Positions 4,101 through 59,518 of a stretch of 64,000 nucleotides of DNA are shown piece after piece. This DNA comes from Caenorhabditis elegans (lineage: Eukaryota > Nematoda > Chromadorea > Rhabditida > Rhabditidae). The number at the start of each line of letters is the position of its first letter. The stretch's first letter is position 1. Where the stretch lies: NCBI RefSeq assembly GCF_000002985.6, contig NC_003279.8:12586001-12650000 (forward strand). Reading direction: 5' to 3'. The translations under genes and the position numbers were made by a program. A model generated the notes under the pieces. That model did no database searches and was not told the DNA's origin. It saw only the letters and a list, made by a program, of their open reading frames with translations.

Positions 4101-5091
4101 ACTTCACCTTTGAAAAACATTTAAGAAACTGTCTGAAGCCATGGAAAAATACCAATGTAATAACGTCTGGACAAGAACTGAAGCACCAGAGACTGTAACT
4201 ACAAGGACTGAGCCACCAAGGACTGAACCTCCAAGGACTATACCTCCGAGGACTGAAGCTCCAAGGACTGAACCACCACGAACTGAACCACCAAAGACCG
4301 AAGCTCCAAGAACTGTGCGGCCAAAGACCGAAGCTCCAATGACTGTACCACCACGGACTGAACCGCCAATGACTGAAGCTCCAAGAACTGAAGTGCCAAT
4401 GACTGAACCACCAAAGACTGAACCACCAAGGACGGCGCCACCGAGAACTGAAGTATCAATGACTTTACCACCAGAGACTGTACCTCCAAATACTGAAGCT
4501 CCAAGGACTGAAGTACCAATGACTGTACCACCACGGACTGAACCACCAAAGACCGAAGCTCCAAGGACTGTGCCGCCAAAGACCGAAGCTCCAATGACTG
4601 AAGTACCAATGACTGGACCTTCCAGGACTGAAGTACCAATGACTGAACCACCAAAGACTGAACAACCAAGGACGGCGCCACCAAGAACTGAAGTATCAAT
4701 GACTTTACCACCAGAGACTGTACCTCCAAAGACTGAAGCTCCAAGGACTGAAGTACCAATGACTGGACCTTCCAGGACTGAAGTACCAATGACTGTAACT
4801 CCAGAGACTGGACTTTCAAGCACTGTAACTTCAAAGACTGAACCACCAAAGACTACGACTGAAAAGAGAATAACTCCAAGGACAGAAGTGCCAAAGACGG
4901 TTCCTCCGCGGACTGGGCCACCAATGACTGTACCTCCTGGGACTGAAGCACCGACGACTGAAGCACCAATGACTATAACTCCAAGGACTGAACAACTAAG
5001 GACTGAACAACTAAGGACTGATCAATCAAAGACTGTAACTCCAAAGACTAAAATTACAGTCTGGCCTACAGACTACAGAGGTCCAATTTGA
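1152..5091 (+). CDS. Secreted mucin-like protein with four Cys-rich modules and a Pro/Thr-rich tail
   Basis: Six exons join in frame to 942 aa: 1152-1311, 1378-1802, 2201-2542, 2772-3128, 3328-3906 and 4126-5091. The start ATG opens a signal peptide (MARTLFAFLLLTFVACSAG). A short Cys-rich N-terminal segment follows, then four modules at roughly residues 123-206, 245-320, 365-440 and 555-632. Their shared core is LDDxCYxKLGGTxVMxWFGN, then FC, then IxCxCG and FFL, and each continues across an intron into KFxEAxxKYPC. Thr/Pro linkers separate them. The last exon is about 300 residues of degenerate PPRTEAP/PPKTEPP repeats, likely O-glycosylated. Introns 1 (GTGTCG donor), 3 (ATTTGAG acceptor) and 5 (ATTTAAG acceptor) have weak sites, so those joins are less certain. 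AATAAA lies at 5116. Function not recognised; the module vaguely resembles nematode T20D4.11-like (DUF19) domains. Confidence 0.75.
1867..2032. mobile_element. Small foldback MITE in intron 2 of the mucin-like gene
   Basis: The ends are inverted: AGGGCTG at the left and CAGCCCT at the right. Inside, ACTCGGAAAATTTTC-type blocks recur in opposite orientation. The 166-bp element lies wholly within the intron 1803-2200, so it should be spliced out. Family not recognised. Confidence 0.6.
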
Positions 5092-11695: not shown

Positions 11696-11704
11696 GGGGG
11701 TATA
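11696..11704 (+). tRNA. 5' fragment of a tRNA-Ala(AGC) gene, split by a transposon
   Basis: GGGGGTA matches the 5' acceptor strand of a eukaryotic tRNA-Ala. It is followed by TA (11703-11704), which is repeated at 15781-15782 at the start of the TAGCTCAGTGG continuation. The remaining tRNA lies at 15781-15845, across the 4,076-bp insertion. Non-functional as it stands. Confidence 0.75.
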
Positions 11705-11989
11705 CACAGGTAAACCGCGTCATGCGAATATTCATCGGGTGACGGGCCGCTATTTCGCGAAAACGGTACATGGCTTTGGCGAAGGCCCGAGCCGCTATTC
11801 GATGAAAAACTGGCGGAAAACGGACCGGTAAATGATGAAGACGCGCAAATGCCCAGCTAGTTGTTCACCCGTTTTTCGCCATATATTTGAAATTTGCGGT
11901 TCATTAATGACAATTAATAGTTCATACAAATTTTTATTATTTAAAAAAATAAAATACAATTTGAAAAAATAAATTAAAAAAATAAATTA

Positions 11990-13097
11990 TTCGGATGGGG
12001 GGACGGGTTGGTCGATGTAGGTGACTCGTTCCGAGGCGACGAGGCGGCAGGAGTCGGTGATTGTTGAAGCCGCTGAAAACAAAAAATGGTTTTTAATTAA
12101 GTTTCAACTATTTTTCTTACGTGATGAATAATCGTCCAGTTGACGAATAGCACAGTCCACGTGGGCGTGTTTAGTGGTGGAGCCTCGTCGATCACATTAT
12201 CCTGATTTGCCCAATTTAACTGTTGCTCGGTGAGTCACATTCGGAGATATATTCACAAATGGAATTGCATCCATCTCCAGATCCAGTGTGATGATGATGA
12301 CGAATTAGAGGCGATTTCGGTGCAACTGTCGCGGCTACTTGACGATTAAAGCTGGGATTACGACGAGGAGTTTCTCTGAAAAATTGTAGTTGGTTATCGA
12401 GAATCCAGGAACTTTTCGAATATTTTATCAACAAAACCAAACGTTTTCCAAGTTTTCCAATCAATAACGTCGTTCATTCTCGGCGGGCTTTCCGGTTCAT
12501 CCAATTGGGGCTCAATGCCGGCGCTGAGCGTTTGGCGGATTTTCATCATCGGAAAAATCGAATGGAGACACAATTTGAGATGCTTGGCAAACATCCACTC
12601 CGGCGAGAGATTCCAAATAAACTTTAGACGTCTCTGGAGTTTGGATGGGAATGTGCTGCTGATTCTGAAAATTTGAGTTGATAAAATTTTGGGTTAAAAA
12701 ATTAATGATTACATTGACAAATTTCCGCCTTCCGGTCTTTAATTGTAGCATGGATCTCGACTTGTTGGACAAATTCTCGGATCAGAGTCTAGCATCAGGG
12801 CAATCAAACTGCGAGGATCTGTAGAAATTCCAGCGAAGAATCTAACAGGAGTCTCTCCATTTCTATGGATTCCGTGTCGGATCCGCGGATGAATCGACGC
12901 CTCAACGTCGGAAATGCTGAAACACGAGTATATTTACGGAAAATAATTATTTTTGCCAAAAAGATCAAAGAATTGCTGAAGAAAACTATGAAAAATCGAA
13001 GAAAAAGAAAAATAAATGGTGAAAAAAAAATTTCGAAAATGAGGAGGATTTACGGTAAAGAGGGCGCGGTACCGTTATTTCGGAGTGTCGTTGCCAT
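11990..13097 (-). pseudogene. Decayed multi-exon gene fragment carried by the transposon
   Basis: A plausible first exon, 13054-13097 (MATTLRNNGTAPSLP), ends at GTAAAT. It joins in phase to an exon starting at 12916 (ISDVEASIHPRIRHG... then DPRSLIALMLDS), after which the frame shifts into REFVQQVEIHATIKDRKAE. Further coding-like exons with TTTTCAG acceptors follow: one with PIQTPETSKVYLESLAGVD, one with LNWANQDNVIDEAPPLNTPT, and a last short one near 11990-12073. The conserved splice signals and exon sizes argue for a captured host gene. At least one frame change makes it look dead. I do not recognise the protein and see no transposase motif. Confidence 0.5.
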
Positions 13098-13275
13098 CTG
13101 CGTTTGGAGCTTCTTTTGAAATGTTTTCTCGCTCTTATATTAAAATCGTAGAAAAGTAAAAATCACTTTGAGTCGTAAATGTAATTTGTGATTGAAACCA
13201 ACAAATAATTGAAAAAAATTGAGTTCAATAAAAATTTAATTAAAAATATTTTCCACTAATTTTAAAATTTTGATA

Positions 13276-15325
13276 AGGGTCCCCCCTTATGAAAAAATTT
13301 TGGAAAAACATTTTTCTTCCAAAAAATTTTAATCCTGCTGGATTGTGTAGGAAATGTATATTTTAGTATTTTCCACAGTTTTCATAGCACAAGCATACTC
13401 CTGGGCAAAAAATACAACAGTCGATTTGGATTGTTCATAGAAAGTACTTTCGAAAGTCAGTACTTCCAAAATATTCTAGCTCCGCAGGCAGCTGAAATAT
13501 GAAAAACTTTTCAATTAGAAAGTTATTAGGAATGAAGTGATTGACAAATTACTTATTGTAACTTTTTGTTATCTCGGATGGCTGAGCAGGTAGGAGCACC
13601 TAATTATATGTCAAATATCACTAATTTTGACTGATGATATCTCCGTACTCTGCACAAAAAGCAATAAACTATTAAACATAAAACATGTTCCATAACAAAC
13701 TGAACAAGTTTATAGTTGACAATTTTTTGATATCTTGCTTGCGCGATGTGGGACATGACTTCGAAAAACTGTCATAGTAGGTAGATCAGATAGAGGAATA
13801 GAGGTTTTTACAGTTTCTTAGTTTTCGAAAGCACCACATTTGGAAAGAAAGTACATAGATACAATTAGGAAAACATATTTTTACAATATCTGATAAATAT
13901 TTGACAACTTTTGAAAAAAAAAAATTTGGATCTTTTTTTGAATAAAAAATCCAAAGGGTCCCCCCTTATGAAAATTTTCTAAAATTTTTTCGAAATTTTT
14001 TTTTTGAAAACTTTTCTTAATTTGATCATATGTTATAGAAAAATGTAAATTTGATTGATTTTTTAAAGTTTCGATGTTCAGAGCACGATTTCAGACAAAA
14101 ACCTGGGGTTCAGTAGAACCTCTAAGTTCAAAAAACGCATTTCCTTTGGATGCGTATATCTTTGTTCAAAAATTTTTTCTGACAAAGTGTTCAACTACAA
14201 AGTTGTTTATTTTAATCTAAAGTACAACTTTGTAGTTGATGGTATTTTTTCAAAAAATTTTATGGTCGAGATAAAGTTGTGTTAATGGCGGCAGTTTCCT
14301 GCCTGTATTTTCTTCGTCTTTTTCTGTTCATATATCGGCCATTAAATTTTTTGAAGAAATACTATCAACTACAAAGTTGTACTTTAGATTAAAATAAACA
14401 ACTTTGTAGTTGATCACTTTGTCAGAAAAAATTTTTGAACAAAGATATACGCATCCAAAGGAAATGCGTTTTTTAACTGAGGGGTTCTACTGAACCTCAG
14501 GTTTTCGTCTGAATTCGTGCTCTGAACATCGAAACTAAAAAAAACAGTCAAATTTACATTTTTCTATAACATCTGATCATATTATGAAAAGTTTTCAAAA
14601 ATAAAATTTCGAAAAAATTTTAGAAAATTTTCATAAGGGGGGACCCTTTGGATTTTTTATTCAAAAAAAATCCAAAATTTTTTTTTCAAAAGTTGTCAAA
14701 TATTTATCAGATATTGTAAAAATATGTTTTCCTAATTGTATCTATGTACTTTCTTTCCAAATGTGGTGCTTTCGAAAACTAAGAAACTGTAAAAACCTCT
14801 ATTCCTCTATCTGATCTACCTACTATGACAGTTTTTCGAAGTCATGTCCCACATCGCGCAAGCAAGATATCAAAAAATTGTCATCTATAAATTTGTTCAG
14901 TTTGTTATGGAACATGTTTTATGTTTAATAGTTTATTGCTTTTTGTGCAGAGTACGGAGATATCATCAGTCAAAATTAGTGATATTTGACTTATAATTAG
15001 GCGCTCCTATCTGCTCAGCCATCCTAGATATCAAAAAGTTACAATAAGTAATTTGTCAATCACTTCATTCCTAATAACTTTCTAATTGAAAAGTTTTTCA
15101 TATTTCAGCTGCCTGCGGAGCTAGAACACTTTGGAAGTACTCACTTTCTATGAACAAGCGAAATTGACTGTTGTATTTTTTGCCCAGAAGTGTGATTGAG
15201 CCATAAAAACTGTGGAAAATACTAAAATATACATTTTCTACACAATCAAGAAATTTTCAAAAATTTTGGGAAAAAAATTTTCATACCAAAAAATACCAAA
15301 ATTTTTTTTCATAAGGGGGTACCCT
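13276..15325. mobile_element. 2.05-kb foldback element nested in the larger transposon
   Basis: The whole interval is an imperfect palindrome centred at about 14300.5, with arms of roughly 1 kb and almost no unique core. The ends read AGGGTCCCCCCTTATGAAAA and its reverse complement (with GTACCCC), and TA flanks both sides. A second pair of the same terminal motif sits inside at about 13956 and 14646. This implies that one foldback inserted into, or grew from, another. It resembles C. elegans foldbacks such as Tc4 and Tc6 in structure, but the termini differ from those I know. Confidence 0.8.
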
Positions 15326-15780
15326 TATGAATTTTGAAATCGTACCATACTTGTGAAATTAAAAAAATCGTGTAAGTGAAATTTCAAAAAAAAAATACTC
15401 GAACAGACTTGTTCAACTTGTACTAAGAAAGGATTCATCAGTTGAACTAGTTAGTATCTATTCACAACTTCTTCGTAGGCTACTACTGGGTTCATCCGAC
15501 GCTCGTCGGTTGGCGGCCGGATATTCACCGAATATTCGTGTGTCCCGGTTCGAAAAAGTTTGCTGAAAATATTTTGCCACCCATTTCAACAACTCGTCTT
15601 ACTTTCGCGCAATCCTCACCGGAAGCGGTTCTTCTCAAAATCAAGCAAAAATCATTCGTCCGGTACTGAACAGTTTTTCGCATGTTTGCGGTTTTTCGTC
15701 AGTATTTGACCAGATATTCGCGTGTTAGCGGCTATTTGTTCGTTATTCACCAGTTGCTCGCGTGACGCGGTTTACCTGTG

Positions 15781-15845
15781 TAGCTCAGTGGTAGAGCGCT
15801 CCCTTAGCATGGGAGAGGGCTGGGGTTCAATTCCCCATAACTCCA
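15781..15845 (+). tRNA. 3' part of the split tRNA-Ala(AGC)
   Basis: From position 8 onward the cloverleaf is intact. The D arm is GCTCAGTGGTAGAGC. The anticodon arm CTCCC-TTAGCAT-GGGAG has anticodon AGC. The T arm is TGGGGTTCAATTCCCCA, then TAACTCC and discriminator A. The preceding seven bases (ACCTGTG) belong to the transposon and do not pair with the 3' acceptor strand. The fragment at 11696-11702 does pair, with one wobble and one mismatch. The internal A and B boxes survive, so Pol III transcription starting in the transposon end is conceivable. Confidence 0.85.
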
Positions 15846-15897
15846 GAAACTTTTTCGCTTTTCGGTTGTTCAATATTACTTTCAAAAAAATTTTAAA

Positions 15898-23880: not shown

Positions 23881-23901
23881 ACAAGAACTTCTAGAAAAAA
23901 A

Positions 23902-23975
23902 TTGCCACAATGGGGACTCGAACCCCGGTCTTGAGATCGGCAACCGCTGAAAATCCCACTGAGCCATTTGGGCAC
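23902..23975 (-). ncRNA. tRNA-like element 1
   Basis: Read on the minus strand it has the A-box-like TGGCTCAGTGGG and the B-box GGTTCGAGTCC, ending CATTGTGGCAA. It belongs to the family described under the findings. Confidence 0.65.
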
Positions 23976-24101
23976 TTTTCTTAAAACTTTCGGATTTTTT
24001 TATAGAAACTTAAAATTTGAATGATTGTTTTTTTCAAATGGGACATTGATTTTCCAACTTATAATTCTTAATTTAGTCTAATCACACTTTGGAAAAAAAA
24101 A

Positions 24102-24175
24102 GTTGCCACAGTGGGGACTCGAATCCCAGTCTTGAGATTGGCAGCCGCCAAAAAATCCCACTGCGCCATTTCTAC
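24102..24175 (-). ncRNA. tRNA-like element 2
   Basis: Minus strand: TGGCGCAGTGGG near the 5' end, a GGATTCGAGTCC B-box, and a CACTGTGGCAAC end. Confidence 0.65.
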
Positions 24176-29212: not shown

Positions 29213-29617
29213 ATTTTTTTTTAAAGTTTCGATTGGACCAATTGAAATGTTCTAAGCTTGAAAATTAGCATTTGATGTCTTGAATATTGCTGGAAGTATA
29301 ATATTTTAAAATCTTGAACATTTGTTTTCTAAGCACCTGAAAGTGACGTTTGCTGAAATTTTGAGCTTTGGCCACCTGAACAAAAATTGCAAAACTTCCA
29401 GTAAGCCTGAAAAATGAACGAAATGCCATTTTCAGGATAAATAATTTTGTTTTTAACGGTTGCAATATAATCTATACTAATTTTTGCAAACATCATTTTT
29501 GAAGATTAATTTTTCATCATTCAAAATGTTGAGTTAATTTTTTTAATGGAGTGTCAATTTTTGATCTCAGAGGACCTCGGTTTGAATAAATCCTCGCTCA
29601 GAAAAAAAGAAAAAAAA

Positions 29618-29691
29618 GTTACCACAATGGAGACTCGAACCCGGTGTTGAGATTGGTAGCCGCCGAAAATCCCACTGAGCCATTCGGACAT
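29618..29691 (-). ncRNA. tRNA-like element 6
   Basis: Minus strand: AATGGCTCAGTGGG, then GGGTTCGAGTCTCC, ending ATTGTGGTAAC. Confidence 0.65.
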
Positions 29692-29956: not shown

Positions 29957-32900
29957 ATGTTAATGATGAGCAACAAAAAATGGAGCGGCCGAATTGTGGA
30001 CCCACCGGCTCCGCCTCACGACTTCTTCTCCAATATGCCTGCCGACATTCGCGAGGTTAGTTTTTTGCAGTCCGAAAACGTAGAAATTTAATTTATAAAC
30101 TCAATTTTGATCATTTTTGAAAAAGTTGTCCAAGTGGCGCAGTGGGATTTTTGATAAACCTCCCTAAAATCAAAAGACCGTGGTTCGAGTCCCCCTGTGG
30201 CAACTTCTTTTTACAAGCTGTTATTTGACTAAAAGATATATCTTAGAACTAAAATTCATAATTTTAACTCAAAATGAGAATTATTGACCGTAAAAACTGA
30301 ACCTTTTGATTTTTCTAGAATAAATTTTGATTTTCTCGGTTTTTGGCGATAAATTTTTGATGAAATTGTTAAGAACACTACACAACCAGTAAATTTTAAA
30401 AGTTTTAAAATTTTTTAAGAAAAGTGTCCGAATGGCGCAGTGGAACTTTTCATGCCAATCTCAACACCAGGGTTCGAGTCCCCACTGTGGCTAATATTTT
30501 TCTCAGCGCTAATTTAGTGTCTCCTGCAATTCCAAAATCCTTTCAAACGTTTTTTTCTTGTTTTTCGCCAGGAATGCCAGGTTATTTTTTGATTCCAGAA
30601 AACTTTTTAGGGTTTTTTTCTGAATCTTTACTCTTTCAGGGGAAAAAGTATCCGATACACTAGAGCCTAAGGCAATTAATTATAAACTAGAAACACAAGA
30701 GGAAAAACAAATTGCGTAGGCACTCACTGGGGTGACATCCTGTTTTGCAGATTTTCGTCACTTTTTTCTCGAGTTGTCTGAAAATTTTCAAAAAAAATTC
30801 AAAGGAATTGTCTGTTCAATCTAGAAGTTATACAATTTCTTAAACACTCACATGTATTTGAAATTTACGGTGGGAAAAATATTCTGAAGAATTTTTTCTC
30901 TCTTTCTCTTTAATTTTCTTTTTTAAAAACTGAGCTATAATTTTTCAAATATATCAGAAAAACAACACGTTGTTGGTCTGTTTTTTTTTCTGAAAAAAGG
31001 GAACCCTTATCCAATTTTCCGTTTTATTTTCATGCGAACCTCCAATTTCCTGGAAATTTGAATATTTCTAATTTTTGGGTTTTCGGATGTTGGAACATCA
31101 AAAAACAAAAAAGAAAAATATAGTTGCCACAGTGAGGACTCGAACCCGGGTGCTTTGATTTGTAGAACTATCATTGAAAAACCTCTGAAAATTTTTTTTC
31201 AGTTTTTCAGTTTAATTTCTAGCTTTGTGGCGTTGATTTTCAAACTCATGACACTTGATTTAATAAAATCACACTTTAAAAACGAAGTTGCCACATTGGG
31301 GACGCGAACCCCGGTCTTCTGATTGGCAGCCGCCCAGAATTCCACTGCGCCATTTGGGCACTTTTTTCTCTGAAATTTCTCAAACTTGCTAGAAATTTAA
31401 TTAATAATTGTAGTTTTAAAGTTTTAAATTGCATATTTTGAGAGTTTTTCATGCTCAAACTCTATTTTGTCCAAAAAAAATACTCGATTTTTGGTTCTTT
31501 TCCCAAAATTTTGAGCAAAACAGGACTATTTGATTACACATAGGGTTATTTTTGGTTTTGTTTGGTTTTCCACGTGTGCTTTGATGTCAGAGCCCACCCT
31601 TGAAATTTGCTAATTAAATTTTGAAAAAAAAATTCATCCAGTTTTTTGACTTTTCATTTCCCATTTCACATAAAATTGGAGAAATTTACTAAGGCTTCTC
31701 ACATTTTGATTATATATGGCTTCATTTTATCCTGTTTTAAAATCTATATATATTTTTAAATCTTCCTCGCTTTCCCATTTTATTCAATTTTCATTTTTTC
31801 TTCTTGAATTTTTCATATTCATTTCTCACTGAATTCTTGATATTATATAGCTTTTACTGAGCCGAAACAGCATAAACTCTAGAATTTTGAAATTTTTTAA
31901 AAATTTGAGCAATTTTTGCAAAAAGTGTCCAAATGGCGCAGTGCGATTTTCGGCGGATACCAATCAGAAGACCGTGGTTCGAGCCCCCATTGTGGCAACT
32001 GTTTTTTGATTACTGATGATTAATGTATGCTGAGTTCAAAAATCAATATCACAGTCTTCAAAAAAAAAATTAACTGCATAAACTGCAAAATTTTGATTAA
32101 TTTTCGGAAAAGTGTCCAAATGGCGCAGTGAGATTTTGAACGGCTATCAATCTGAAGACCATGGTTCGAGTCCCCACTGTGGCAACTAATTTTTTCTAGA
32201 TTTTTCTAGATATTTATTATTTTTCTATCCAGAGTATGCTCTACGTTCTGTATTATTTTGTGATGTAAATTTTATTTATTTTTTCCTGAAATTTTTTTAT
32301 TCAGCTGTAAGTAAATAACTATTAAAAACATGCAGCTGGAAAAAAAATTCGTCAGAAAAACTTAAAAAAAACACGAAAAATATCCAAAAAAGAATAATGG
32401 AGATGAATTTTCTGTCGCTGGCCACCACTTTCATTTGTTCTAGGCTTCTGAAAAAGAAGAATGTCATTTCCAGATTCCCTTCCTTTTTTCTCAAATTTCA
32501 GAAAAAATTGCTTCAAAAATATTTCCCACAAAATTTTGGTTTTTTTTCAGTTTGTTTGCAGTTTCACCAGAATTTTTTTTTTGGAATTTTCAGCATTGAA
32601 ATCAGGATAATCTAAATTTGAAAAAAAACGTTGCCACTGTGGGGACTCGAACCCTGATTGGTAGGATTTTCATCGAAAAACCCTCTGAGCCATTTCTGCA
32701 CTTTTCTTAAAACTGGCAAATTTTTCAGTATTACGATATAATTCGTCATAGTAACAAATCAGAATTCCCACTCAAACTACAAAAGGGCTTCACGTCATGA
32801 ATATTTCCGCACCACCTCTCATAATCCGTATTTAGTCATCTCATTTTGAGAAATTTCAGTTTTTCGAAATTTTTTGGTAGCACTTCTAAAAATGTTCAGT

Positions 32901-35900
32901 GTGTCTGATTATACTTGCGAAATCACAATTTCACCTCCAGGACTCGGGCTTATATCTTTGTTAGACTCGTGCTTCTCAAAAATCCCAATGCGCCAAACGC
33001 GTACCTCCATCCATTTTGAATTTTTTACCACAAAATTTATTTGATGTACTCCTTACTCACTTTAAAAAATTTTGACCAGTGCGAGGAGTCGAACCCCGGA
33101 CCCCAGATTACCAATCATGGAAAATCCCACTGCGCCAAAAGTGCAACTCCGCTCATTTTAATTTTCGACCTTGAATACCTTTTTTTGTCATACTCATCCC
33201 ATTTTACAAAAAATTTTGACCAGCGAGGGGAGTCGAACCCCGGACGCCAGATTACTAGCCATCAAAAATCCCACTGCGCCAAACGTGCATTTTTTTCCAA
33301 TTTTTTAAAAAAATTCTCAAAAATCACCAAAACAAAATTAATTTCTACTAATTTAAGTGTACTGAATCCGTTTTCAACCTCAAATCCCACTCCACGTCAC
33401 TCTTAATCTTTGTTCGTTCCCTTTTGAAAGCCCAAAACCGAAGGATCACTAATAAAACATAAAAGGAATACGAATAACAATGAGCCACCCGCCGTGGCCG
33501 CCCATCAATTTCTCATTCATTAGCCCATAAAATAGCGATAGCTGAAAAAACATAGAATTCCAGGAAATTACTTTCATTTTTTAAGGTTTTCAATTTTTTA
33601 TTTCCGCCTGCAAATTTATGCGTTTTAAAACAAGGAAGAAGCTTGTTTTGAATAGTAAAATTTCAAACAAAAAAAAAAGAAGATGCCACAGTGGGGACTC
33701 GAACCCCGGTCTTAAGATTACGAGCAGTCAAAAATCCTATTGCGCCGCCAATTGTACAAATCCGTCAATGTTGACTTTTAGAATTTGAAATTTTGTTTAT
33801 ATACCCTTTGTTGCTTGCAAAAAAAATTGCAGGCTCGCGGAATCGAACCCCGGTCGTCTGATTATTAGCCGTCGAAAATCCCCACTGCGCCACCCACGAA
33901 AAATTTCGAAAATTCCCCAACATTTAAAATTTTCTTCGGATTTTCAATACTTTCCAGTTCATTTTCAAGTTCAAATTTCACGTCACTAACCCTTGTCCTA
34001 TAGTGAAACACGCTTGAATTATTAAGTATTTCCCGGAAGATCACAAATCATTCGGGTAAAAGGAAAAAAAGTGTAATTTAATTTCACTTTCAAACAAAAA
34101 CTGGCGTAAGGTTATCCATTTGAACTTCCTAGTTCAGGTTTCAAGAAAAATAGGTAGGCGGGCTCCACGAGGTGAAGCTCCTGCGCCATTATCGTCATTT
34201 TTTCCGCGTAATTTCGAATTTCAGCTCTTTGAGGTCTTAACGGGGTCGTAGATTCTCTGTTTTTAAAAATTTTCAGCAAAATTTCAATATATGCTCTTAG
34301 CTACAAGTTCTCAATTATTTTCGGTGCCTGGCAACTCCGCAAACTCAATTTCCCAGAGTTCTCAGTCTATCCCCCATCACATGAGTTTCGCGTAATTTTT
34401 CTCATATTTTTCTGATCATGAGAGCGTTTTTAATGTAACTTTTGGACAAAAAGCCTGCCTAACTAAGCCTGAGCCTAAGACCTAAGCCTAAGACCTAAGC
34501 CTAAGCATATACCTATACCTATACCTATACCTTTACCTATACCTATACCTATACCTATACCTATACCTATACCTATACCTATACCTATACACATACCAAA
34601 ATTAATACCATTTGTATTTTTAGAGCTATTATAGCTTCCGAACTTTTTTTATAATTGGAAAACATTAGATTTGAAGATTTCCTGGTACAACGTCATTTTT
34701 TCCTGGAATTCAGATTTTCAGCTGCCACATAACTGTTATAAATTTCGGTTTTTCCACAGATTTTATGTTTTCTAGACCAAAAAAATCTCTTGGTTTCCTT
34801 GGAGCCTTAGCTGAAGATTTACTGGCTTAGAGTTAATTTGGTGCGGAGCCCAAAAATTTTAGACCACTTTTGTTAGGGTCCACTAGATTAGTATAATAAA
34901 TAAAGCCGTCAAAATCTTTTCAAAATCTCGCTGTTTCCCACAAATTTGCTTGGGTAACGGAACATTAATACCTCTTCTGAGATTTGGAGCCAGTTTGTCT
35001 GAGCTTAGGGTAATCCATATAAGGTTTCTTTGATCTGTTAAGTAAACTCTTTCAAGATATTTTCGATCCTTTATTCTAATTTTTCTCCCTGAAAATCATT
35101 TCCCTGTTCCTGTGATTCTCCCACGCTTTGGTCATTTAGTCATGCCTTGACAAAAACTACGTGTTCAATCATGGGAGCCTTCTTTCCTGTCATTCTGCTC
35201 ACCCCAACACCAATTTCCTCAGCACATAACCTGTATCTTTTTCAGATGCTCGAGCTACAGGAAAACATCACCGATTCTCAGGTAATTCATACTTTAATAA
35301 TAGAAGTTAATTCTCCAAATTTCAGCCGATGGATCCGCCATCGCTAGAGATCATGATGCTCCATCACCTCATGATCATTCTGGTCACCCTTTTCGGTAAC
35401 ACACTTCTGATCTATGTGATCTACAAGAACAATGCGGTGCTGAGGCGGAAACGGGTCACTCCCGTGCAGGTAGGGATCACAGTTGTTAGATAGAACAACC
35501 CAGGTCTGACTTTGTACGGAAGTCCGGCTTAGTCTGGTTTACAAGCCAAACTCCCAATCACCCTCAACCTCTGATTTTCCAGATGCTAATGCTTCACATG
35601 TGCGCTGCTGACATTCTATTCGCCCTGATCAGCGTGGGCCCGACTATGGCCATCACTGCCACCGTCCCCTTCTTCTACGGCCCAAACCTGCTGTGCAAGC
35701 TCACCAAATTCCTCCAAGTGATCCCAATGTACGCCTCATCCTTCCTGCTCGTGGCGATCAGCGCGGATCGATATCAAGCCATCTGCCGTCCGCTTGCCTC
35801 TATGAAATCATCCATCTACAACCGCCCGGCCCTCTACTCCGGAATTGCCTGGACCGCGGCGATCCTCTTCAGCACACCTCAACTCTACCTCTTCGAGAAA

Positions 35901-38428: not shown

Positions 38429-39224
38429 TTAACCAAAACGTGGCTTTTGGATTCCGTCAATGGTGCGCAGGAATCCTGACATGTCCTCGAAGCCTTCCAG
38501 CGGGGCACGACGTTCCTTGGCTGGGAGGAATCGTCTGAAAATTAGGCTTTGAGAGAGGGAACGAGGACTGTTGAAAAGGAGCCTACTCACTAGAGCGAAG
38601 AGATAGTGAAGAGATCAGGAGCCTAAGCCTAAGCCTAGGCCTAAGCCTGAACCTAAGCTTAGGCCCAAGCCTGAGCCTAAGCCTAAGCCTGAGCCTAATC
38701 CTAGGCAAGGGTGTCAAGTCCCGTGTTCCGTTTGCCCCGTTGTCCCGTTTTTTGGGTGTTTTCACGGGAACGGGACGTCCCGATGTCCCGTTTTTGTAAT
38801 TTTTACGGGACATTGACACCCTTGATCCTAGGTCTAAGCCTGGGCCTGAGCCTAAGCCTAAGCCTAAATCTTGGTCTAAGCCTGAGCCTAAATCTAAGCC
38901 TAAGCCAAAACCTAAGCCTAAGCATAAGCCTAAGCCTAAGCATAAGCCTAAGCCTAAGCTTACGCCTAAGCCAAATAAGTTTAAAAAAACATTATAGTTA
39001 GGGCAACGCGACTCATTCAGCAAGTCATATTTATACATCGAAATCTCCAAGATCTAGTTCCCAACTCACTTGATAAATTCCAGCTCGGCGTTGCGAGCTT
39101 GACGAGCTTCCTGTGCCAGCTCTGCGGCTCCACCATCGGCAAACGCGGCAAGACGTGGCTCTACCGAGAAGCCATGCACGGCTGACAGCAACACAATTGC
39201 GACGATGAGAATAAGAAAACGCAT
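38429..39224 (-). CDS. flp-33: FMRFamide-like neuropeptide precursor FLP-33
   Basis: Two exons, 39070-39224 and 38429-38534, encode 86 aa. Residues 1-18 are a signal peptide ([18 protein letters not shown]). A spacer leads to dibasic sites KR (52-53) and RR (60-61). Cleavage after RR releases one 24-residue peptide, residues 62-85, ending [14 protein letters not shown]. The final Gly86 supplies the C-terminal amide. The peptide matches my memory of C. elegans FLP-33. It is secreted from dense-core vesicles and acts on GPCRs. The 535-bp intron is almost entirely telomere-like repeat with a small hAT-type MITE. A GA-rich run follows the stop codon in the 3' region (38340-38380). Confidence 0.92.
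38617..38970. repeat. Large interstitial telomeric repeat filling the flp-33 intron
   Basis: GCCTAA/CCTAAG units run for about 350 bp, many perfect and others with single changes (CCTGAG, CCTAGG). The block is interrupted once, at 38706-38824, by a MITE with its target duplication. Confidence 0.9.
38706..38824. mobile_element. 119-bp hAT-type MITE inside the telomeric repeat
   Basis: The TIRs read CAAGGGTGTCAAGTCCCGT and the inverse of CAAGGGTGTCAATGTCCCGT. A perfect 8-bp duplication ATCCTAGG lies at 38698-38705 and 38825-38832. An 8-bp TSD with a CAAGGGTG-type terminus fits the hAT superfamily. The interior is GGGACG/CGTCCC-rich and can fold. Confidence 0.85.
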
Positions 39225-40741: not shown

Positions 40742-43057
40742 CTACATAATCTTCCAAAAGTAGTCCACTACTTCCAATAAGAGCTTGGCCATCTGTCGTG
40801 GCGTAAACGAGGAATGTTTCAGTGGGCTTGTTCGCTGATAATTTGTGAATTTCTCGTTGATAAGACGTTGATTCACATCAATGATCACCACAATTATGGA
40901 TCGGTAGATATTGCACTGAAATTTTGAATATTTAGGAAAAAAAAACAAAAAAATTGCTTCAGTGGGGACTAGAACCCTTTTTATTTTTTTAACCAAAAAT
41001 GGTACTTTAATAAAATTTTAATAATTTTTAGACCATTTTCTACCCAAATACCCACCACATCTTCGGGCATATTATTGAACGGAGCCTCTCGCTCCACATG
41101 CTCCATGGCTTCACGTAAAACTGGCAGGTTTCGTAAAAGCACGTCACGTTGGTAATAGCAATACTTGAATTGGTGACCACATTTGCAAGCAATCACTTGT
41201 ACAAAAAACTGAAGGAAAAAAATTGGAAAAAATTGGAAAAAAACCAACCTTTCTATCAAAAAATTCACAATTCTGGCTTGCCACGTGGCTCTGAAACCCC
41301 TTGTTGTCCCGAAATCGGCGTTGACATGTGGTACACACATATAAGCCCTGAAATTTAACAAAAATAAAGGAAAAACTCTGAAAAAAGAGCCCAACATATG
41401 CTCGTTCCTCCTGCTTCTCCTGGTAGCGCAAAAAGTACTTGTAGTTGAGAAGTAGGTGCCTGGAGTCTAGGAATAGGTGTTTCTGAAAACTTGATTTTTA
41501 AAAATAAAATAAATTGAATTTTTTGGAGTATTTTGAGTCAAAAAAAAACTAGAAAAAAGCTTACAAATTAGATGAGTTATGGAAGTTTGAAACTTTTCAA
41601 ACAAGAATTCTGAGAAAATTTTGGGTCTCACGAAAACTTATTTCCTAACAAGTTTCTTCAGAAAATTTTCAGGCTAAAAAGCTTTAAATTTTTCAGATTC
41701 CCAGCTTTTCCAAATTTTAAAATACAAATTCCCAATGAAAACTCACATAATGCTGCTCAAAAAAGTGTCGGATACACTTCTCATTAGTTTCAAAAATGTA
41801 CTTGCACACCGGATCCGGGCACATATGATCCCGGCCGTGTAAATGTGCCACGTACTCGTTACGTGACGACCAAGTACGATTGCAACAGTTGCAGATGTAA
41901 ACTGGCTGAAATTTGGAGCAAAAATTTTTTCCTTGATTTATTTTTTCTAAATAAAAATTTCCCAACCTTCAAAAAATGTTTCTGCTGATCCCAAGCTTCT
42001 GTTTCAACAGATCCAGTTCCTTGTAAATGCTCCAAAGCAGTCTTATAGTCTGAAAACCGTACTCCACAGCAAAATAGTTGGCAGGATTGGTGCTCCAGGA
42101 GGTAATGGAATCTCGCATCAATGAGGTCCAAAAATAGTAGGCTACACGTGGAAAATGGACAGGGAATTACCTGAAAATCAAGAAAATTGCAAACAAATTT
42201 TCAAAATATCCAAGTGGCGCAGTGAGATTTTGGACAGCATATTAATCTCAACACCGTGGTTCGAATCCACCTAATGACATCACTAGTTTTACTAGATTTT
42301 ATAAGTTTAACAAAAACATTTGAACGCACAAATTCAAAATCTGGTAGCTGAATCTGAAATTTTCCATCTAGAAATCCGTTATATGCATCCATATGGACAA
42401 ATTGGTGCCATAGACGGGAGAGCTCCGAGCTGAGTATTTGGTGGCATTTCGGGCAAGTTTCACGCTGGAAAAAACGTTTTAAAAGTTAGGAGTTTGTCTA
42501 CAATACCCCTAGAGTCATCCTACAGTACCGCTACAATTATCCTACAGTAACCCTACAGTAACCCTACAGTAATTTCACAGTACTCTCACTATCCCGCTGA
42601 GCATTTCTGCAGTAGCTTACCGTAACCCTACAAAACCCCTACACAAGAATCACAGACCTACTACGGTATTGCAACAGTACCTATACAGTATCCCTACAGT
42701 AGCCTTAAACTACCTCTACAGCATCCCTACATCTGGCTCACAGTATCCCAGAGTAGCCTTTAGTGTCTCTACATTATTCCTACACTACCATCACACTACC
42801 TCTACAGTACCCCTACAGTACCCCTACTATAACCCCAAAACACTTCTAGAGTACCTCTAAAGTACCCCTAGTACCTGTCTCAACGGCTCGACAACTACCG
42901 TATCCTCTGCCCTTATAACCACCAACTCGAAGCGCTTCTCCTCGAATTGTGTCATCTGCATTCGGTTGAACACCTCCTGTTCGGTGGCGTCATCCATTTT
43001 TGCGGGGGAAAATTTCGGTAGCTTTCGAGAAATGGTGAACTTATCTTGCAGTTTCAT
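40742..43057 (-). CDS. C2H2-type zinc-finger protein (complete copy)
   Basis: Eight exons join in phase to 397 aa: 42875-43057, 42330-42464, 41967-42170, 41747-41905, 41396-41482, 41249-41347, 41056-41208 and 40742-40915. Zinc-binding sets seen in order are CPKCHQ..WHQFVH, CPFSTC..HYLLEH, CNCCNRTW..HLHGRDH, CPDPVCKYIFETNEKCIRHFFEQH and CTTCQRRFRDNKGFQSH; a looser Cys/His group ACKCGHQF follows. Spacing is irregular, unlike tandem TFIIIA fingers. The C terminus (SPLKHSSFTPRQMAKLLLEV) is probably helical. An alternative start is MDDATEQEV, residue 21. Intron 1 is CTACAGTA-repeat DNA, and introns 2 and 7 each hold a tRNA-like element. Exons 1-6 lie in the inverted repeat; exons 7-8 lie outside it and are unique. 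Nucleic-acid binding is inferred. Confidence 0.85.
40953..40980 (-). ncRNA. tRNA-like element fragment in intron 7 of the zinc-finger gene
   Basis: Only the 3' half survives: GGGTTCTAGTCCCCACTGAAG on the minus strand. Confidence 0.45.
42206..42277 (+). ncRNA. tRNA-like element in intron 2 of the zinc-finger gene (left)
   Basis: CCAAGTGGCGCAGTGAGAT and the B-box GGTTCGAATCC are intact; the 3' end is altered. It is antisense to the host gene. Confidence 0.6.
42500..42870. repeat. CTACAGTA(C/A)CC tandem repeat in intron 1 of the zinc-finger gene
   Basis: More than 20 degenerate copies of CTACAGTA-CCC spaced about 15-17 bp apart fill the intron. The mirror copy is at 52857-53227. Confidence 0.8.
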
Positions 43058-43308
43058 CTAATTGGAAAGTCACACTTTTCTTCGGAAAAAATATTATTGA
43101 AAGAAAATTAAGATTAAAAATTCCAGATAAGATGTTTGTTTCGCAGGAATTGGAATAGATTTTTCACAGAAAAAGTTGAGTTTCAGTACAGTTTAAACTC
43201 CTCCCTGTCGAGGTGCACTTTTTTCAAAAATAAAGTTTTGGAATGAATTAAACTGAAAATATTTATTCAACGAATGAAATACAAGGGTAGCATGATCTTT
43301 AAAAAGTT

Positions 43309-44701
43309 CTATGGTCTATAGATAACAGAAGTAAACTTTGCCGTGAAACCTGGGAAAGTGGTTCTCTCATCTGACGTGAACGTTACAAGCATGTTATTTC
43401 CAGTTGATGTATATGAAAACGGAGCTCTTATAGTACCACTGAGACGTCCCAAAACTGGACTGTTTATCGTTTCACCATCGTAGACGATCACCATATCATT
43501 GTTCAATTCAACGATGAAAAATTAAATTGTAGAAAAACCCTGTTTGGCCCCAATGTGGAAAGCTGATAAGTACATCTCTCATTGTTGAAGTAGTTTTCTG
43601 GATAATTCGGAGTGGTGATAACTGCATTATCCATTAGTCGCCCTGCGTTGCAGTTTGATGAGTTTGAAGAAATTGGTGTCACAGATGTTGGTGGTACAGT
43701 TGGGCACTGCACACCAGCCTCACGCTTGCACACGTACTTCCTATTGTCGATACAGTTGTCACTGTACCATAAGCCGGTCGGAGAACCGTTAAACACCGAC
43801 ATTTTCAAACAATAATCTATTCGAGGAGATGTTGGATCAATTTTACTGTAGTCCCACGCAGAACCATCTACCCAGTTGAGACTTGAGTTATGATTCCATA
43901 TCGCTCCAATATAGTGAAAACCTTCTGGCGCAAAGGTGGTGATATATTGAGCTTCATTTGAAGAATGTATTGACACAAGGCTTCCACAGCTTTTTGCGCA
44001 AATTCCCTGTGCAGTAGTAAATGGTGCATCAGCCGTGCTGAATGTGTAGCAGTACCCGTTGTAGTTGTAAGTGCAGCTATCTGGAAGTTCTGGACATTCA
44101 CAAGACACGTTATCATGATACCTGCAATCGTTGTTGGTAGTTCACAAATATAAGCTACACGCTGGCTTTCACAATCCTCGCTGAGCCATTTGCCAGTTAG
44201 TGCTCCCTGCGTAGAATAATAAACACATTGCCCAAGTTCGACAATTGGAAAACCTAAAACACTGAATAGTTGTTTTTTTTTCTCAAATCAAATAAATAAA
44301 ACCAAACCACTGGAAAAGTTGTTGTATCTTTGTGCCGATTCAGATCCATCATCCCATAAACACTGCGAAGGATCACTTTCAAAACAAGATAATCCAATCC
44401 ATATTAATGTAGAACTTCCAGATCCCGCAATAGTCGCAATTGCTTGATTATCCTGTAACCTCGACTTTGGAAAATCATAAAATTGTGGGCAAATTGTACT
44501 TACGCGATAATCTTTGACCTGAACAAGTGTTGCTCCAAAGCTACTACAAGATCTTTCAGCAGTTCTATGATTGACTGGAGTATTGAAAAGTTTCAAGCAC
44601 TTGTTGTTAATTAGTGTGAACCCATTTGTGCAAATTGGGGATGAAGTAACACAATTTGCAAGATAAAGAGTCAAAATTAGCAGAGCGGAAATTGTTTGCA
44701 T
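43309..44701 (-). pseudogene. C-type lectin/CUB gene A (left), frameshifted in the CUB domain
   Basis: Exons 44504-44701, 44308-44452, 44122-44253 and 43503-44080. A signal peptide (MQTISALLILTLYLANCVTS) precedes two C-type lectin domains. CTLD1 starts CTNGFTLINNKCLKLF and includes WIGLSCFESDPSQCLWDDG; CTLD2 starts CTYNYNGYCYTFST and includes YSDNCIDNRKYVCKR. A short Thr/Ser linker and a CUB domain (CNAGRLMDNAVITTPNYP) follow. The frame hits TGA at 43503-43505 after VFLQFNFSSLN, while the rest of CUB (NNDMVIVYDGETINSPVLG to FTSVIYRP, end 43309) continues in another frame. So either the protein is truncated in CUB or the gene is dying. The right-arm copy has the same shift. Confidence 0.8.
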
Positions 44702-44805
44702 GGTGGGAAAAGGGGTATGATTCTTATCAAAAGTCATAAAGTAGTTTCGAGGCGGTCTTTGGAAGCCACTCGGTGCATATTGAATCATGATAAGAATTTT
44801 CAACT
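44702..44805 (-). promoter_or_regulatory. Upstream element of lectin gene A (left)
   Basis: CTTTTGATAAGAATCATACC lies about 20 bp before the ATG. About 70 bp further upstream sits the conserved block ATTGAATCATGATAAG / GCACCGAGTGGCTTCC. TGATAAG matches GATA-factor sites, such as those used by intestinal ELT-2. The block is shared with gene B and the remnant. Confidence 0.65.
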
Positions 44806-45184
44806 GGTGAACCATTAATAAACAAAATGATGTGAAAGGCTAAAAATCATGTTAATATAAAATTATCAGAATGGTTTGTTCAACTTCTAACTAATATACT
44901 GTTTTTTTTAATCAACTAAACGCCGATAGCACGGATTGTGAGAAGACGCTTACCGAGTTATTGAATACTCGGTCACATTCTAGACAATGGGACAAACAAA
45001 ACTGAATTCGTCTGTAGCATGATGAATAAAAATTAGCCTGTTCCAGACCTGTTATACATATGGATATTCCCCAATTTTTGTACATAATGAATTGAAATAA
45101 TAGTGAGCTTATTTATTGAACACGTGGAATGCAAAAGCAAAATGGTGGAATTAATAAACAAAAAGTATATGTTTTCAAATAGTT

Positions 45185-46555
45185 CTACGGTCTGTAAATC
45201 ACAGAAGTAAACCTTGCCGTAAAACCTGGGCCAACAATACTGGCATCTGATGTGAAAGTTACAAGCATGTTATTTCCAGTCGATGTATATGAAAATCCAC
45301 CTTTGATAGTACCACTGAGACGTGCTGCCAAAACTGGACTACTTGTCGTTTCGCCATCGTAAACGGTCACAAAATCACGTCCAGCCTCAAGTCTGAAATC
45401 ATAAAATACTAGAATTATCTTATATGATCCCAATGTGGACAGTGTATAAGTGCAGTTTGCATTGTTGAAGTAGTTTTCTGGGTAGTTTGGAGAGGTGATA
45501 ACTGCATTATTCATCAGTCGCCCTGCGTTGCAGTATGATGAACTTGGTGCCACAGTTGTTGGCGGTACAGCTGGGCATTGCACACCGGCTGGACGTTTGC
45601 ACACGTATTTATTATTGTCGACGCAGTTGTTACTGTACCACATTCCAGTCGGATAACCGTTGAACGCCGACATTTTCAAACAGTAATCAACTCGAGGAAA
45701 TATTGGATCGATGTCACTGTAGTCCCACGCAGAACGATCTAACCAGATGAGACTGGAGTCATGATGCCATACCGCTCCAATATAGTAATACCCTTCTGGC
45801 GCAAAGGTAGTAAGATATCGAGCTTCATTTGAAGAATGAATAGATGCAAGGTTTCCACAACTTTGTGCGCAAATTCCCTGTGCAGTTGAGAATGGTGCAT
45901 CAGCAGTACTGAATGTGTAGCAGTACCCGTTGTAGTTGTATTTGCAGCTATCTGAATTTTTGAAAGTTCACAAGATACGCTATCATGATACCTGCGATCG
46001 TTGTTGGTAGTTCACAAATATAAGAAATGCGCTGGCTTTCACAATTCTCGCTGAGCCATTTGCCAGTTAATACTCCTTGTGTAGAATAATACACACATTG
46101 ACCAAGTTCGACGATCGGAAAACCTGAAACACTGTGTGGTGTTTTAACAGAAAAATAAAACCAACCACTGGAAAAGTTGTTGTATGTGTGTGCCGAGCCA
46201 GTTTCATCATCCCAAAAACATTGGGAAGGATCACTTTCGAAGCAATACAATCCGAGCCATATTAATGTAGAACTTCCAGATCCAGCAATAGTCGCGATGG
46301 CTTGGTTATCCTAAAACCTTGACATGTGCTTATTCTAAAATTATGTAATCCACTTACAATATTATTTTTGGCCTGAACAAGAGTTGCTCCAAAACTACCA
46401 CATGATTTTTCAGCAGTTGTATGATTCACTGGGGTACTGAATAGTTTCAAGCATTTGTTGTTGATCAGTGTGAAACCATTTGTGCAAATTGGGGATGAGG
46501 TAACACAACTTGCAAGACAAACAGTGAATATTAGCAGAGCGGAAATTGTGTGCAT
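45185..46555 (-). CDS. Secreted C-type lectin/CUB protein, gene B (left), intact
   Basis: Exons 46358-46555, 46166-46310, 45992-46123 and 45185-45951 give 413 aa in consistent phase. Order: signal peptide (MHTISALLIFTVCLASCVTS), CTLD1 (CTNGFTLINNKCLKLF to CESQRISYICELP), CTLD2 (CKYNYNGYCYTFSTADAPF to NCVDNNKYVCKR), a short TTVAPSSS linker, then a complete CUB domain (CNAGRLMNNAVITSPNYP to FTARFTSVIYRP). The architecture is that of nematode clec proteins, many of them secreted and pathogen-responsive. Canonical EPN/WND calcium-sugar motifs are not evident, so sugar binding is unproven. The third intron is only 40 bp. Downstream on the same strand follow lectin gene A and the zinc-finger gene. 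Confidence 0.88.
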
Positions 46556-46665
46556 GGTGGGAAAAATGGGTATGATTCTTATCAAAAGTCATCAAGAAGT
46601 TTTTAGGCGGGCTTAGGAAGCCACTCGGTGCATATGAATTATGATAAGAATTTCAAATTGGTGAA
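46556..46665 (-). promoter_or_regulatory. Upstream element of lectin gene B (left)
   Basis: TGATAAGAATC lies at 46576-46586 and the conserved block GAAGCCACTCGGTGCATATG at about 46618-46637, next to a second TGATAAGAA on the other strand at 46642-46650. The layout is the same as for gene A. Confidence 0.65.
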
Positions 46666-46799
46666 CAATTAATAAACAAAATGATGTGATAGGCTAAAAC
46701 TCATTTACCGAAATTTCCAATAGATTATTTTTAAATGGATTCTTCAAATTCAAATTAGATCACTGCTGTGTACAACTGCCAGTTCAAAGGTTTTGTGTA

Positions 46800-47095
46800 G
46801 TATAATAGAACAGCTTCACGCTTGCTGGTCCACACCGTTCGCGACATTTTATCTCGCTAAACGCCGGCATCATCAGATAGTGATTCTCAAGAGAAAATAA
46901 CGGATCAATGTAATCCCCGGCTGAACATGTATTCAGTTGAGATTGATGGCATGTCTCTTTATCGCTCTACTATAGCAAGAACAGAGATCAAGCTTCATCT
47001 GATGAATGTTATATACTGTTTATTAATTACCTATCTGTTATAAATTCTTATCGTGATTCATATGCACCGAGTGGCTTCCTACGCCCGCCCTACTT
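46800..47095 (-). pseudogene. Remnant of a third lectin gene with an inverted promoter block
   Basis: 46850-47010 aligns imperfectly to the end of CTLD2 coding sequence of gene B (the GGATCAATGTAATCC and GATTGATGGCATG blocks). It is interrupted and cannot be translated. At 47041-47090 the conserved upstream block (TTCTTATCGTGATTCATATG, CACCGAGTGGCTTCC) appears in the opposite orientation to the remnant, so the locus was rearranged. Confidence 0.6.
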
Positions 47096-47584
47096 ATTAT
47101 TTATTATTTATTATTTATTTATTCATCATGGAAACAAAAAGAATATGATAAGAAAAACATAACCGGTTATGATATTTACACGTGTAGATGAATAAATTAA
47201 AATAAACTCGGCCCGACAGAGCGCGAGTTTAAGTGAGAGGGAAAGAGATCAGAATTTAGATATTTGACAATCAACAAGCAAAAGGAATTGTGATGGGGAG
47301 AGGAAAAAGCTAGAGTTGCGTACAATGCTATTCCATATTGGCACTACTTGGGAGAAAAAGATACGACATTTGGGATTTTTAAAGCATCGGACGACGAGAC
47401 GAGTTAGCAAGCGTAACAAAGTCACTGCTTTTTGGGAAGTGCGCTGCGCCGGTAAGAATTTTGTATAGAAGCAATAGTTGGGCTCTTAGGCGGAGAGAGC
47501 GGGCAGTCAGCTCACTCCGCTTATCACTGACCTACTTTTTTATCCTTCAGTTACTGATTGAAATCTATTCATTCGGTCTTTTTC

Positions 47585-48142: not shown

Positions 48143-48631
48143 GAAAAAGACCGAATGAATAGATTTCAATCAGTATCTGAAGGATAAAAAAGTAGGTCAG
48201 TGATAAGCGGAGTGAGCTGACTGCCCGCTCTCTCCGCCTAAGAGCCCAACTATTGCTTCTATACAAAATTCTTACCGGCGCAGCGCACTTCCCAAAAAGC
48301 AGTGACTTTGTTACGCTTGCTAACTCGTCTCGTCGTCCGATGCTTTAAAAATCCCAAATGTCGTATCTTTTTCTCCCAAGTAGTGCCAATATGGAATAGC
48401 ATTGTACGCAACTCTAGCTTTTTCCTCTCCCCATCACAATTCCTTTTGCTTGTTGATTGTCAAATATCTAAATTCTGATCTCTTTCCCTCTCACTTAAAC
48501 TCGCGCTCTGTCGGGCCGAGTTTATTTTAATTTATTCATCTACACGTGTAAATATCATAACCGGTTATGTTTTTCTTATCATATTCTTTTTGTTTCCATG
48601 ATGAATAAATAAATAATAAATAATAAATAAT

Positions 48632-48927
48632 AAGTAGGGCGGGCGTAGGAAGCCACTCGGTGCATATGAATCACGATAAGAATTTATAACAGATAGGTAA
48701 TTAATAAACAGTATATAACATTCATCAGATGAAGCTTGATCTCTGTTCTTGCTATAGTAGAGCGATAAAGAGACATGCCATCAATCTCAACTGAATACAT
48801 GTTCAGCCGGGGATTACATTGATCCGTTATTTTCTCTTGAGAATCACTATCTGATGATGCCGGCGTTTAGCGAGATAAAATGTCGCGAACGGTGTGGACC
48901 AGCAAGCGTGAAGCTGTTCTATTATAC
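48632..48927 (+). pseudogene. Lectin gene remnant, mirror copy
   Basis: Mirror image of 46800-47095, with the same decayed CTLD segment and inverted promoter block. Confidence 0.6.
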
Positions 48928-49061
48928 TACACAAAACCTTTGAACTGGCAGTTGTACACAGCAGTGATCTAATTTGAATTTGAAGAATCCATTTAAAAAT
49001 AATCTATTGGAAATTTCGGTAAATGAGTTTTAGCCTATCACATCATTTTGTTTATTAATTG

Positions 49062-49171
49062 TTCACCAATTTGAAATTCTTATCATAATTCATATGCACC
49101 GAGTGGCTTCCTAAGCCCGCCTAAAAACTTCTTGATGACTTTTGATAAGAATCATACCCATTTTTCCCACC
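49062..49171 (+). promoter_or_regulatory. Upstream element of lectin gene B (right)
   Basis: Mirror image of the left element. Two TGATAAG sites flank CATATGCACCGAGTGGCTTC. Confidence 0.65.
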
Positions 49172-50542
49172 ATGCACACAATTTCCGCTCTGCTAATATT
49201 CACTGTTTGTCTTGCAAGTTGTGTTACCTCATCCCCAATTTGCACAAATGGTTTCACACTGATCAACAACAAATGCTTGAAACTATTCAGTACCCCAGTG
49301 AATCATACAACTGCTGAAAAATCATGTGGTAGTTTTGGAGCAACTCTTGTTCAGGCCAAAAATAATATTGTAAGTGGATTACATAATTTTAGAATAAGCA
49401 CATGTCAAGGTTTTAGGATAACCAAGCCATCGCGACTATTGCTGGATCTGGAAGTTCTACATTAATATGGCTCGGATTGTATTGCTTCGAAAGTGATCCT
49501 TCCCAATGTTTTTGGGATGATGAAACTGGCTCGGCACACACATACAACAACTTTTCCAGTGGTTGGTTTTATTTTTCTGTTAAAACACCACACAGTGTTT
49601 CAGGTTTTCCGATCGTCGAACTTGGTCAATGTGTGTATTATTCTACACAAGGAGTATTAACTGGCAAATGGCTCAGCGAGAATTGTGAAAGCCAGCGCAT
49701 TTCTTATATTTGTGAACTACCAACAACGATCGCAGGTATCATGATAGCGTATCTTGTGAACTTTCAAAAATTCAGATAGCTGCAAATACAACTACAACGG
49801 GTACTGCTACACATTCAGTACTGCTGATGCACCATTCTCAACTGCACAGGGAATTTGCGCACAAAGTTGTGGAAACCTTGCATCTATTCATTCTTCAAAT
49901 GAAGCTCGATATCTTACTACCTTTGCGCCAGAAGGGTATTACTATATTGGAGCGGTATGGCATCATGACTCCAGTCTCATCTGGTTAGATCGTTCTGCGT
50001 GGGACTACAGTGACATCGATCCAATATTTCCTCGAGTTGATTACTGTTTGAAAATGTCGGCGTTCAACGGTTATCCGACTGGAATGTGGTACAGTAACAA
50101 CTGCGTCGACAATAATAAATACGTGTGCAAACGTCCAGCCGGTGTGCAATGCCCAGCTGTACCGCCAACAACTGTGGCACCAAGTTCATCATACTGCAAC
50201 GCAGGGCGACTGATGAATAATGCAGTTATCACCTCTCCAAACTACCCAGAAAACTACTTCAACAATGCAAACTGCACTTATACACTGTCCACATTGGGAT
50301 CATATAAGATAATTCTAGTATTTTATGATTTCAGACTTGAGGCTGGACGTGATTTTGTGACCGTTTACGATGGCGAAACGACAAGTAGTCCAGTTTTGGC
50401 AGCACGTCTCAGTGGTACTATCAAAGGTGGATTTTCATATACATCGACTGGAAATAACATGCTTGTAACTTTCACATCAGATGCCAGTATTGTTGGCCCA
50501 GGTTTTACGGCAAGGTTTACTTCTGTGATTTACAGACCGTAG
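49172..50542 (+). CDS. Secreted C-type lectin/CUB protein, gene B (right), intact
   Basis: Exons 49172-49369, 49417-49561, 49604-49735 and 49776-50542. It encodes the same 413-residue product as the left copy, as far as the translations show: signal peptide, two C-type lectin domains, CUB. The upstream block and 3' flank (TTCAATAAATAAGC near 50609) are also duplicated, so both copies should be expressed from equivalent promoters. Being identical, the two copies cannot be told apart by short reads. Divergently oriented from the left copy, 2.6 kb away. Confidence 0.88.
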
Positions 50543-51025
50543 AACTATTTGAAAACATATACTTTTTGTTTATTAATTCCACCATTTTGCTTTTGCATTC
50601 CACGTGTTCAATAAATAAGCTCACTATTATTTCAATTCATTATGTACAAAAATTGGGGAATATCCATATGTATAACAGGTCTGGAACAGGCTAATTTTTA
50701 TTCATCATGCTACAGACGAATTCAGTTTTGTTTGTCCCATTGTCTAGAATGTGACCGAGTATTCAATAACTCGGTAAGCGTCTTCTCACAATCCGTGCTA
50801 TCGGCGTTTAGTTGATTAAAAAAAACAGTATATTAGTTAGAAGTTGAACAAACCATTCTGATAATTTTATATTAACATGATTTTTAGCCTTTCACATCAT
50901 TTTGTTTATTAATGGTTCACCAGTTGAAAATTCTTATCATGATTCAATATGCACCGAGTGGCTTCCAAAGACCGCCTCGAAACTACTTTATGACTTTTGA
51001 TAAGAATCATACCCCTTTTCCCACC

Positions 51026-59399: not shown

Positions 59400-59442
59400 T
59401 CCTGAGAAGAGATGGCTCATATGATGGGTAGTACACAAAATT

Positions 59443-59515: not shown

Positions 59516-59518
59516 CTT

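Follow-up and report, generated by a model that had tools for sequence, protein, structure and literature searches.

A tRNA-Ala(AGC) gene of Caenorhabditis elegans split at positions 8-9 by an element with inverted ends and flanking TA

Our analysis of a 64-kb stretch of C. elegans DNA (64,000 nucleotides, hereafter the window) revealed a tRNA-Ala(AGC) gene whose two parts lie on either side of a long insert with inverted ends, each end abutting a copy of the TA of tRNA positions 8-9. We consider it very probable that this arrangement, taken as a whole, reflects a TA-duplicating transposon that entered the gene at positions 8-9, an element that is non-autonomous or degraded and has taken in a palindrome, and a gene that is now a pseudogene. 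The features of the locus, in window coordinates, are as follows.

11696..11704, plus strand: 5' part of tRNA-Ala(AGC), positions 1-7 (GGGGGTA) and the left TA copy (positions 8-9)
11705..15780, no strand assigned: outer DNA transposon, 4,076 bp long, with 1,994 bp outside the nested palindrome
11705..11727, plus strand: left terminal inverted repeat, 23 bp, starting CACAGGTAAACCGCGTCA, 22/23 identical to the right end
11927..12933, minus strand: decayed gene-like stretch in the element, with two candidate introns and AATAAA
13259..15340, no strand assigned: nested palindromic repeat, arms identical at 942/997 aligned bases, 57-nt centre
15758..15780, minus strand: right terminal inverted repeat, inverted copy of the left end
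15781..15845, plus strand: 3' part of tRNA-Ala(AGC), from the right TA copy (positions 8-9) through discriminator A73
15851..15855, plus strand: T5 run, possible Pol III terminator

Positions 11696-11704 read GGGGGTATA and are followed directly by the left end of the element, with GGGGGTA at 11696-11702 and the left TA at 11703-11704. The right TA occupies 15781-15782, immediately 3' of the right end, and from there the tRNA body runs on as TAGCTCAGTGG until the discriminator base at 15845. The left junction is made up of GGGGGTATA and then CACAGG, the right junction of CCTGTG and then TAGCTC, giving a 2-bp duplication. TA is the sole sequence common to both junctions whose sharing gives back a 72-nt tRNA, and this fixes the insertion site, the length of the duplication and the ends of the element where an earlier, sequence-only reading of this DNA had placed them. 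The same reading had described a tRNA-Ala(AGC) gene split by an insert at positions 8-9, with the TA of these positions repeated on both sides of inverted termini and some 4.08 kb between the tRNA parts; the junction letters, the length of the insert and the 72-nt cloverleaf formed by the joined flanks bear it out on each of these points.

From the joined flanks, ARAGORN draws a full cloverleaf and calls a tRNA-Ala(agc) of 72 bases, scoring 118.1. It also still accepts the right-hand chimera as a tRNA (71 bases, score 104.5), reaching 5/7 acceptor pairs through a two-base slide of the 3' strand, which suggests that some residual folding is possible. In the canonical register, the acceptor stem of the joined flanks has six of its seven pairs, including G3:U70, a known identity element of tRNA-Ala, and a single G5:A68 mismatch, whereas the chimera forms only 2/7 pairs in register with the sequence preceding the A box. 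The contiguous acceptor stem with G3:U70 that is expected of a functional tRNA-Ala(AGC) exists only once the flanks are joined. The A at position 68 is a substitution in the 3' acceptor strand that may date from before or after the insertion. The tRNA body, previously described as 'otherwise complete', does run on to A73, but its 3' acceptor strand is altered by this substitution. The Rfam tRNA model aligns with the right-hand part at model positions 6-65 of 71 only (45.8 bits), which indicates that most of the acceptor stem is absent. In ViennaRNA, the joined RNA folded into four arms with a slipped acceptor helix of five pairs, not in the canonical register, while the minimum-energy fold of a chimera of equal length was not a cloverleaf and a 90-nt possible transcript also folded otherwise. 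The fold energies of the joined RNA (z -0.75) and the chimera (z -0.28) were not unusual compared to shuffles; that of the 90-nt possible transcript had a z of -1.89.

The terminal inverted repeats are perfect over their first 18 bp, with ends CACAGG..CCTGTG, and a repeat finder reported the inverted ends as 25 bp at 96% identity, flanking TA counted in. Inverted ends of this kind, bordered by a short direct duplication, have the structure of a TIR DNA transposon. The window contains 278 word pairs formed by perfectly inverted 15-mers that border on TA and are separated by less than 6 kb. Eight of these pairs, the element's own included, fall outside two large palindromes, with several of the others coming from one repeat; the mean in 20 block shuffles was 0.05 such pairs. 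A search of the 64-kb window with a 15-bp end, allowing up to three mismatches, returned two matches, both of them the element's own ends. The terminal 18-mer had no match in viral contigs, and neither did a 45-mer of the joined tRNA. In bacterial and archaeal genome contigs, the 18-mer matched once in each of 16 stretches no longer than 8 kb; since none has an inverted pair, and about seven chance matches are estimated for 257 Gb on both strands, we take these 16 as chance matches.

About half of the insert consists of the nested palindrome (2.1 kb), and the GC content of the element's outermost 200 bp on either side (50% and 45.5%) exceeds that of the core (33%). The decayed gene-like stretch, on the minus strand, contains AATAAA at 11938 and two 48-nt candidate introns. 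One of these (12120-12073) is in phase, in that its removal leaves the frame open until a stop; the other lies at 12712-12665. By their coordinates, the open stretches of this region occupy three different frames, and the region may derive from a host gene that was captured or from an old gene of the element. Pfam gave no match above cut-off in any of the 19 element-overlapping open frames of at least 60 aa; the best match, to DDE_Tnp_1_7 (E=0.01), was below cut-off, at 15.6 bits compared to 22.4. With no recognisable transposase, the element is best read as non-autonomous or degraded. Bases 24-200 of the two ends share an excess of 6-mers (p 0.013) and 7-mers (p 0.012) relative to dinucleotide shuffles. 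The shared words are slightly commoner in opposite orientation (33 vs 26 for 6-mers, 13 vs 11 for 7-mers) and, not being confined to one orientation, do not amount to oriented sub-terminal transposase sites. Hand-picked sub-terminal motifs were set aside in favor of this unbiased word test, as they had been chosen after viewing the ends and included the terminal repeats. Of 17 Rfam rows at E up to 5, the tRNA alone passes its cut-off; matches to microRNA and sRNA families at 14130-14474 lie inside the palindrome, far under their cut-offs, and were rejected.

The window contains a number of other repeats and genes. An inverted repeat at 41250-47584 / 48143-54477 has arms of 6,335 nt that are 100% identical, separated by a 558-nt spacer, and either arose very recently as a palindrome or is an artefact of the assembly. 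Two tandem diverged copies of one stretch lie in each arm, and a frame of this stretch, tested with Pfam, encodes a C-type lectin/CUB protein. Further inverted repeats at 58988-59196, 59433-60776 and 61141-61239, some of them flanked by TA, are apparently short repeat elements. A tRNA-like repeat occurs in eight dispersed copies on the minus strand (23895-23965, 24096-24166, 29611-29681, 31281-31351, 33066-33136, 33210-33280, 33676-33746 and 33820-33890), with sequences such as GGCTCAGTGGG .. GGGGTTCGAGTCCCC. None of the eight is called a tRNA by ARAGORN or Rfam, and they are possibly a tRNA-derived SINE or a pseudogene family. Degenerate arrays resembling the telomere unit of nematodes (CCTAAG and variants; TTAGGC-like) are found internally at 34479-34590 and 38595-38989, and a 15-bp minisatellite extends from 3344 to about 5090, where 4114-5091 is an open frame encoding a Pro/Thr/Glu-rich repeat. 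Proteins encoded in the window include a rhodopsin-type receptor, the C-type lectin plus CUB protein and one with an F-box-associated FBA_2 domain, and short candidate introns end in TTTTCAG. Together with the telomere-like arrays, these features are suggestive of a nematode of the Caenorhabditis type.

We infer from these data that transposition caused the split in the tRNA gene. A cut-and-paste DNA transposon with CACAGG..CCTGTG ends would have entered the TA of positions 8-9, where GGGGGTA and TAGCTCAG would have been adjacent before the insertion, and the empty site would have read GGGGGTATAGCTCAG within a 72-nt tRNA. The element would also have acquired its palindromic repeat at some time. 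Such a transposon insertion is an ordinary kind of event, and its placement at positions 8-9 with a TA duplication is supported as the one reading we found that accounts jointly for the tRNA parts, the two TAs and the inverted ends.

In its ends and its duplication, the element shares features with two groups of DNA transposons. Its CAC..GTG termini and 2-bp duplication point, short of proof, to the CMC (CACTA/Mirage/Chapaev) clade, of which Mirage uses TA. The CACAGG..CCTGTG ends with TA agree with the CA(C)..(G)TG termini of CMC/CMCT elements and their duplications of 2-5 bp. For the DDE transposase of CMC/CMCT elements, with its C(2)C and H(3-4)H motifs, none of the 19 frames gave a Pfam match over cut-off; the copy being degraded, this speaks neither for nor against the clade, and we do not place the element in it. 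Tc1/mariner elements share with it the TA duplication and the terminal inverted repeats. However, Tc1 and Tc3 ends start with CAGTG, and Caenorhabditis Tc1/mariner ends differ from the CACAGG seen here, where no transposase frame was recognised either. As no transposase was found, we do not assign a superfamily. The CMC/CMCT clade comprises CACTA/EnSpm, Mirage, Chapaev, Transib and ESTA; its ends are mostly CA..TG and its duplications 2-5 bp, those of ESTA being TA (PMC12730594), and ENS1_Cis and two CMC MITEs have CAC..GTG ends and 2 bp (PMC6004678). In wild strains of C. elegans, MIRAGE1 ranks among the DNA transposons with the most insertions, and Tc1, Tc3 and MARINER2 occur frequently in this species (PMC5850821).

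The position of the insert, within a tRNA gene, from position 8 and in the A box, recalls the Dada transposons, known from tRNA genes of P. marinus and ray-finned fish (PMC3706591, PMC8869645). Dada elements occupy U1, U6 and tRNA genes and make duplications of 6-7 bp (PMC3706591), each family recurring in its own type of RNA gene. It is possible to imagine that the present family itself prefers T8-A9 of tRNA A boxes, independently of Dada, with the Pol III boxes staying intact next to its right end; we think this very unlikely. A single insertion does not amount to evidence for repeated targeting. The joined tRNA contains five TA dinucleotides (linear positions 6, 8, 19, 32 and 65), so that an insertion at one of them picked at random is expected to strike positions 8-9 about one time in five. 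We think it very unlikely that the element is itself a tRNA-targeting transposon of the Dada type whose left 6-bp duplication has been replaced. Its site is identical to that of the fish families Dada-tY, tK, tN, tR and tS and of several P. marinus Dada families; several families enter tRNA nucleotides 8-13, and in some of them TAGCTC is replaced, sometimes on one side only (PMC8869645). The Dada-tA families of tRNA-Ala, however, use a different site, on the anticodon side (TAGCAT) (PMC3706591, PMC8869645). The inverted repeat extends, at 22 of 23 bases, to the TA on each side and the duplication is of 2 bp, whereas Dada duplications are of 6-7 bp and Dada-U6 and Dada-U1 are described as having no terminal inverted repeats (PMC3706591). 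Because its terminal repeats reach TA on both sides, the element is not a Dada by structure. A Dada-type coding region is also not visible in it, as judged without a Dada profile. A Dada-like target-recognition signal, sought as a similarity of the terminal repeat to the tRNA, was rejected, since none of four comparisons was significant (shuffle p 0.20 to 0.65). In the literature search, the two Dada papers (PMC3706591, PMC8869645) were the close cases among the matches listed, no paper combined Caenorhabditis, a tRNA gene, a transposon insertion and a tRNA pseudogene, and the terminal-repeat strings occurred only in one unrelated paper on sheep mtDNA.

The left part of the gene is only nine bases long and the tRNA body already has a substitution in its acceptor strand, which could mean that GGGGGTATA is unrelated to the tRNA and that the right-hand part is a truncated tRNA pseudogene lying beside a transposon by chance. 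We scanned each strand of the window for TA, which was counted 7,801 times, the real site included. The seven bases 5' of TA pair at six or more of seven positions with the 3' acceptor strand in just 29 of these counts (0.37%), and GGGGGTA precedes TA once, at 11696. Since the nine bases, in addition, give back both G3:U70 and the 72-nt length, we regard a chance neighborhood as extremely unlikely. Archaeal split tRNAs carry pairing arms, which the complementary ends beside both tRNA parts resemble, but the chance of a true split or intron-bearing tRNA, whose complementary ends pair and whose parts are joined at the RNA level, is practically negligible, as the TA is present twice, so that simple joining would retain two surplus bases, the left part, with its 9 bases, has no A or B box, and nuclear tRNA introns are known at 37/38.

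Under the transposon reading, the fate of the gene can be considered from its promoter. The A box (TAGCTCAGTGG, 15781-15791) is unbroken because the duplication restores TA, and the B box (GGTTCAATTCC, 15824-15834) is present as well, in agreement with the earlier observation that the two boxes remain joined in the right-hand part. From the box consensus and the T run, it is plausible that Pol III transcribes the chimera, as the earlier reading had proposed: with both boxes intact, the polymerase could bind there and begin within the right terminal repeat. The chimeric transcript would lack the 5' acceptor strand, could form no Ala acceptor stem and would be discarded; we do not expect it to yield a processed, charged tRNA. 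The insertion most likely killed the tRNA gene.

The locus offers a clean case of transposition breaking a tRNA gene, and the insertion explains why a 'tRNA-Ala' is still called there by a gene finder. If other copies of the element were also to lie at T8-A9, they would represent a second, independent lineage of tRNA-targeting DNA transposons that shares its site with Dada.
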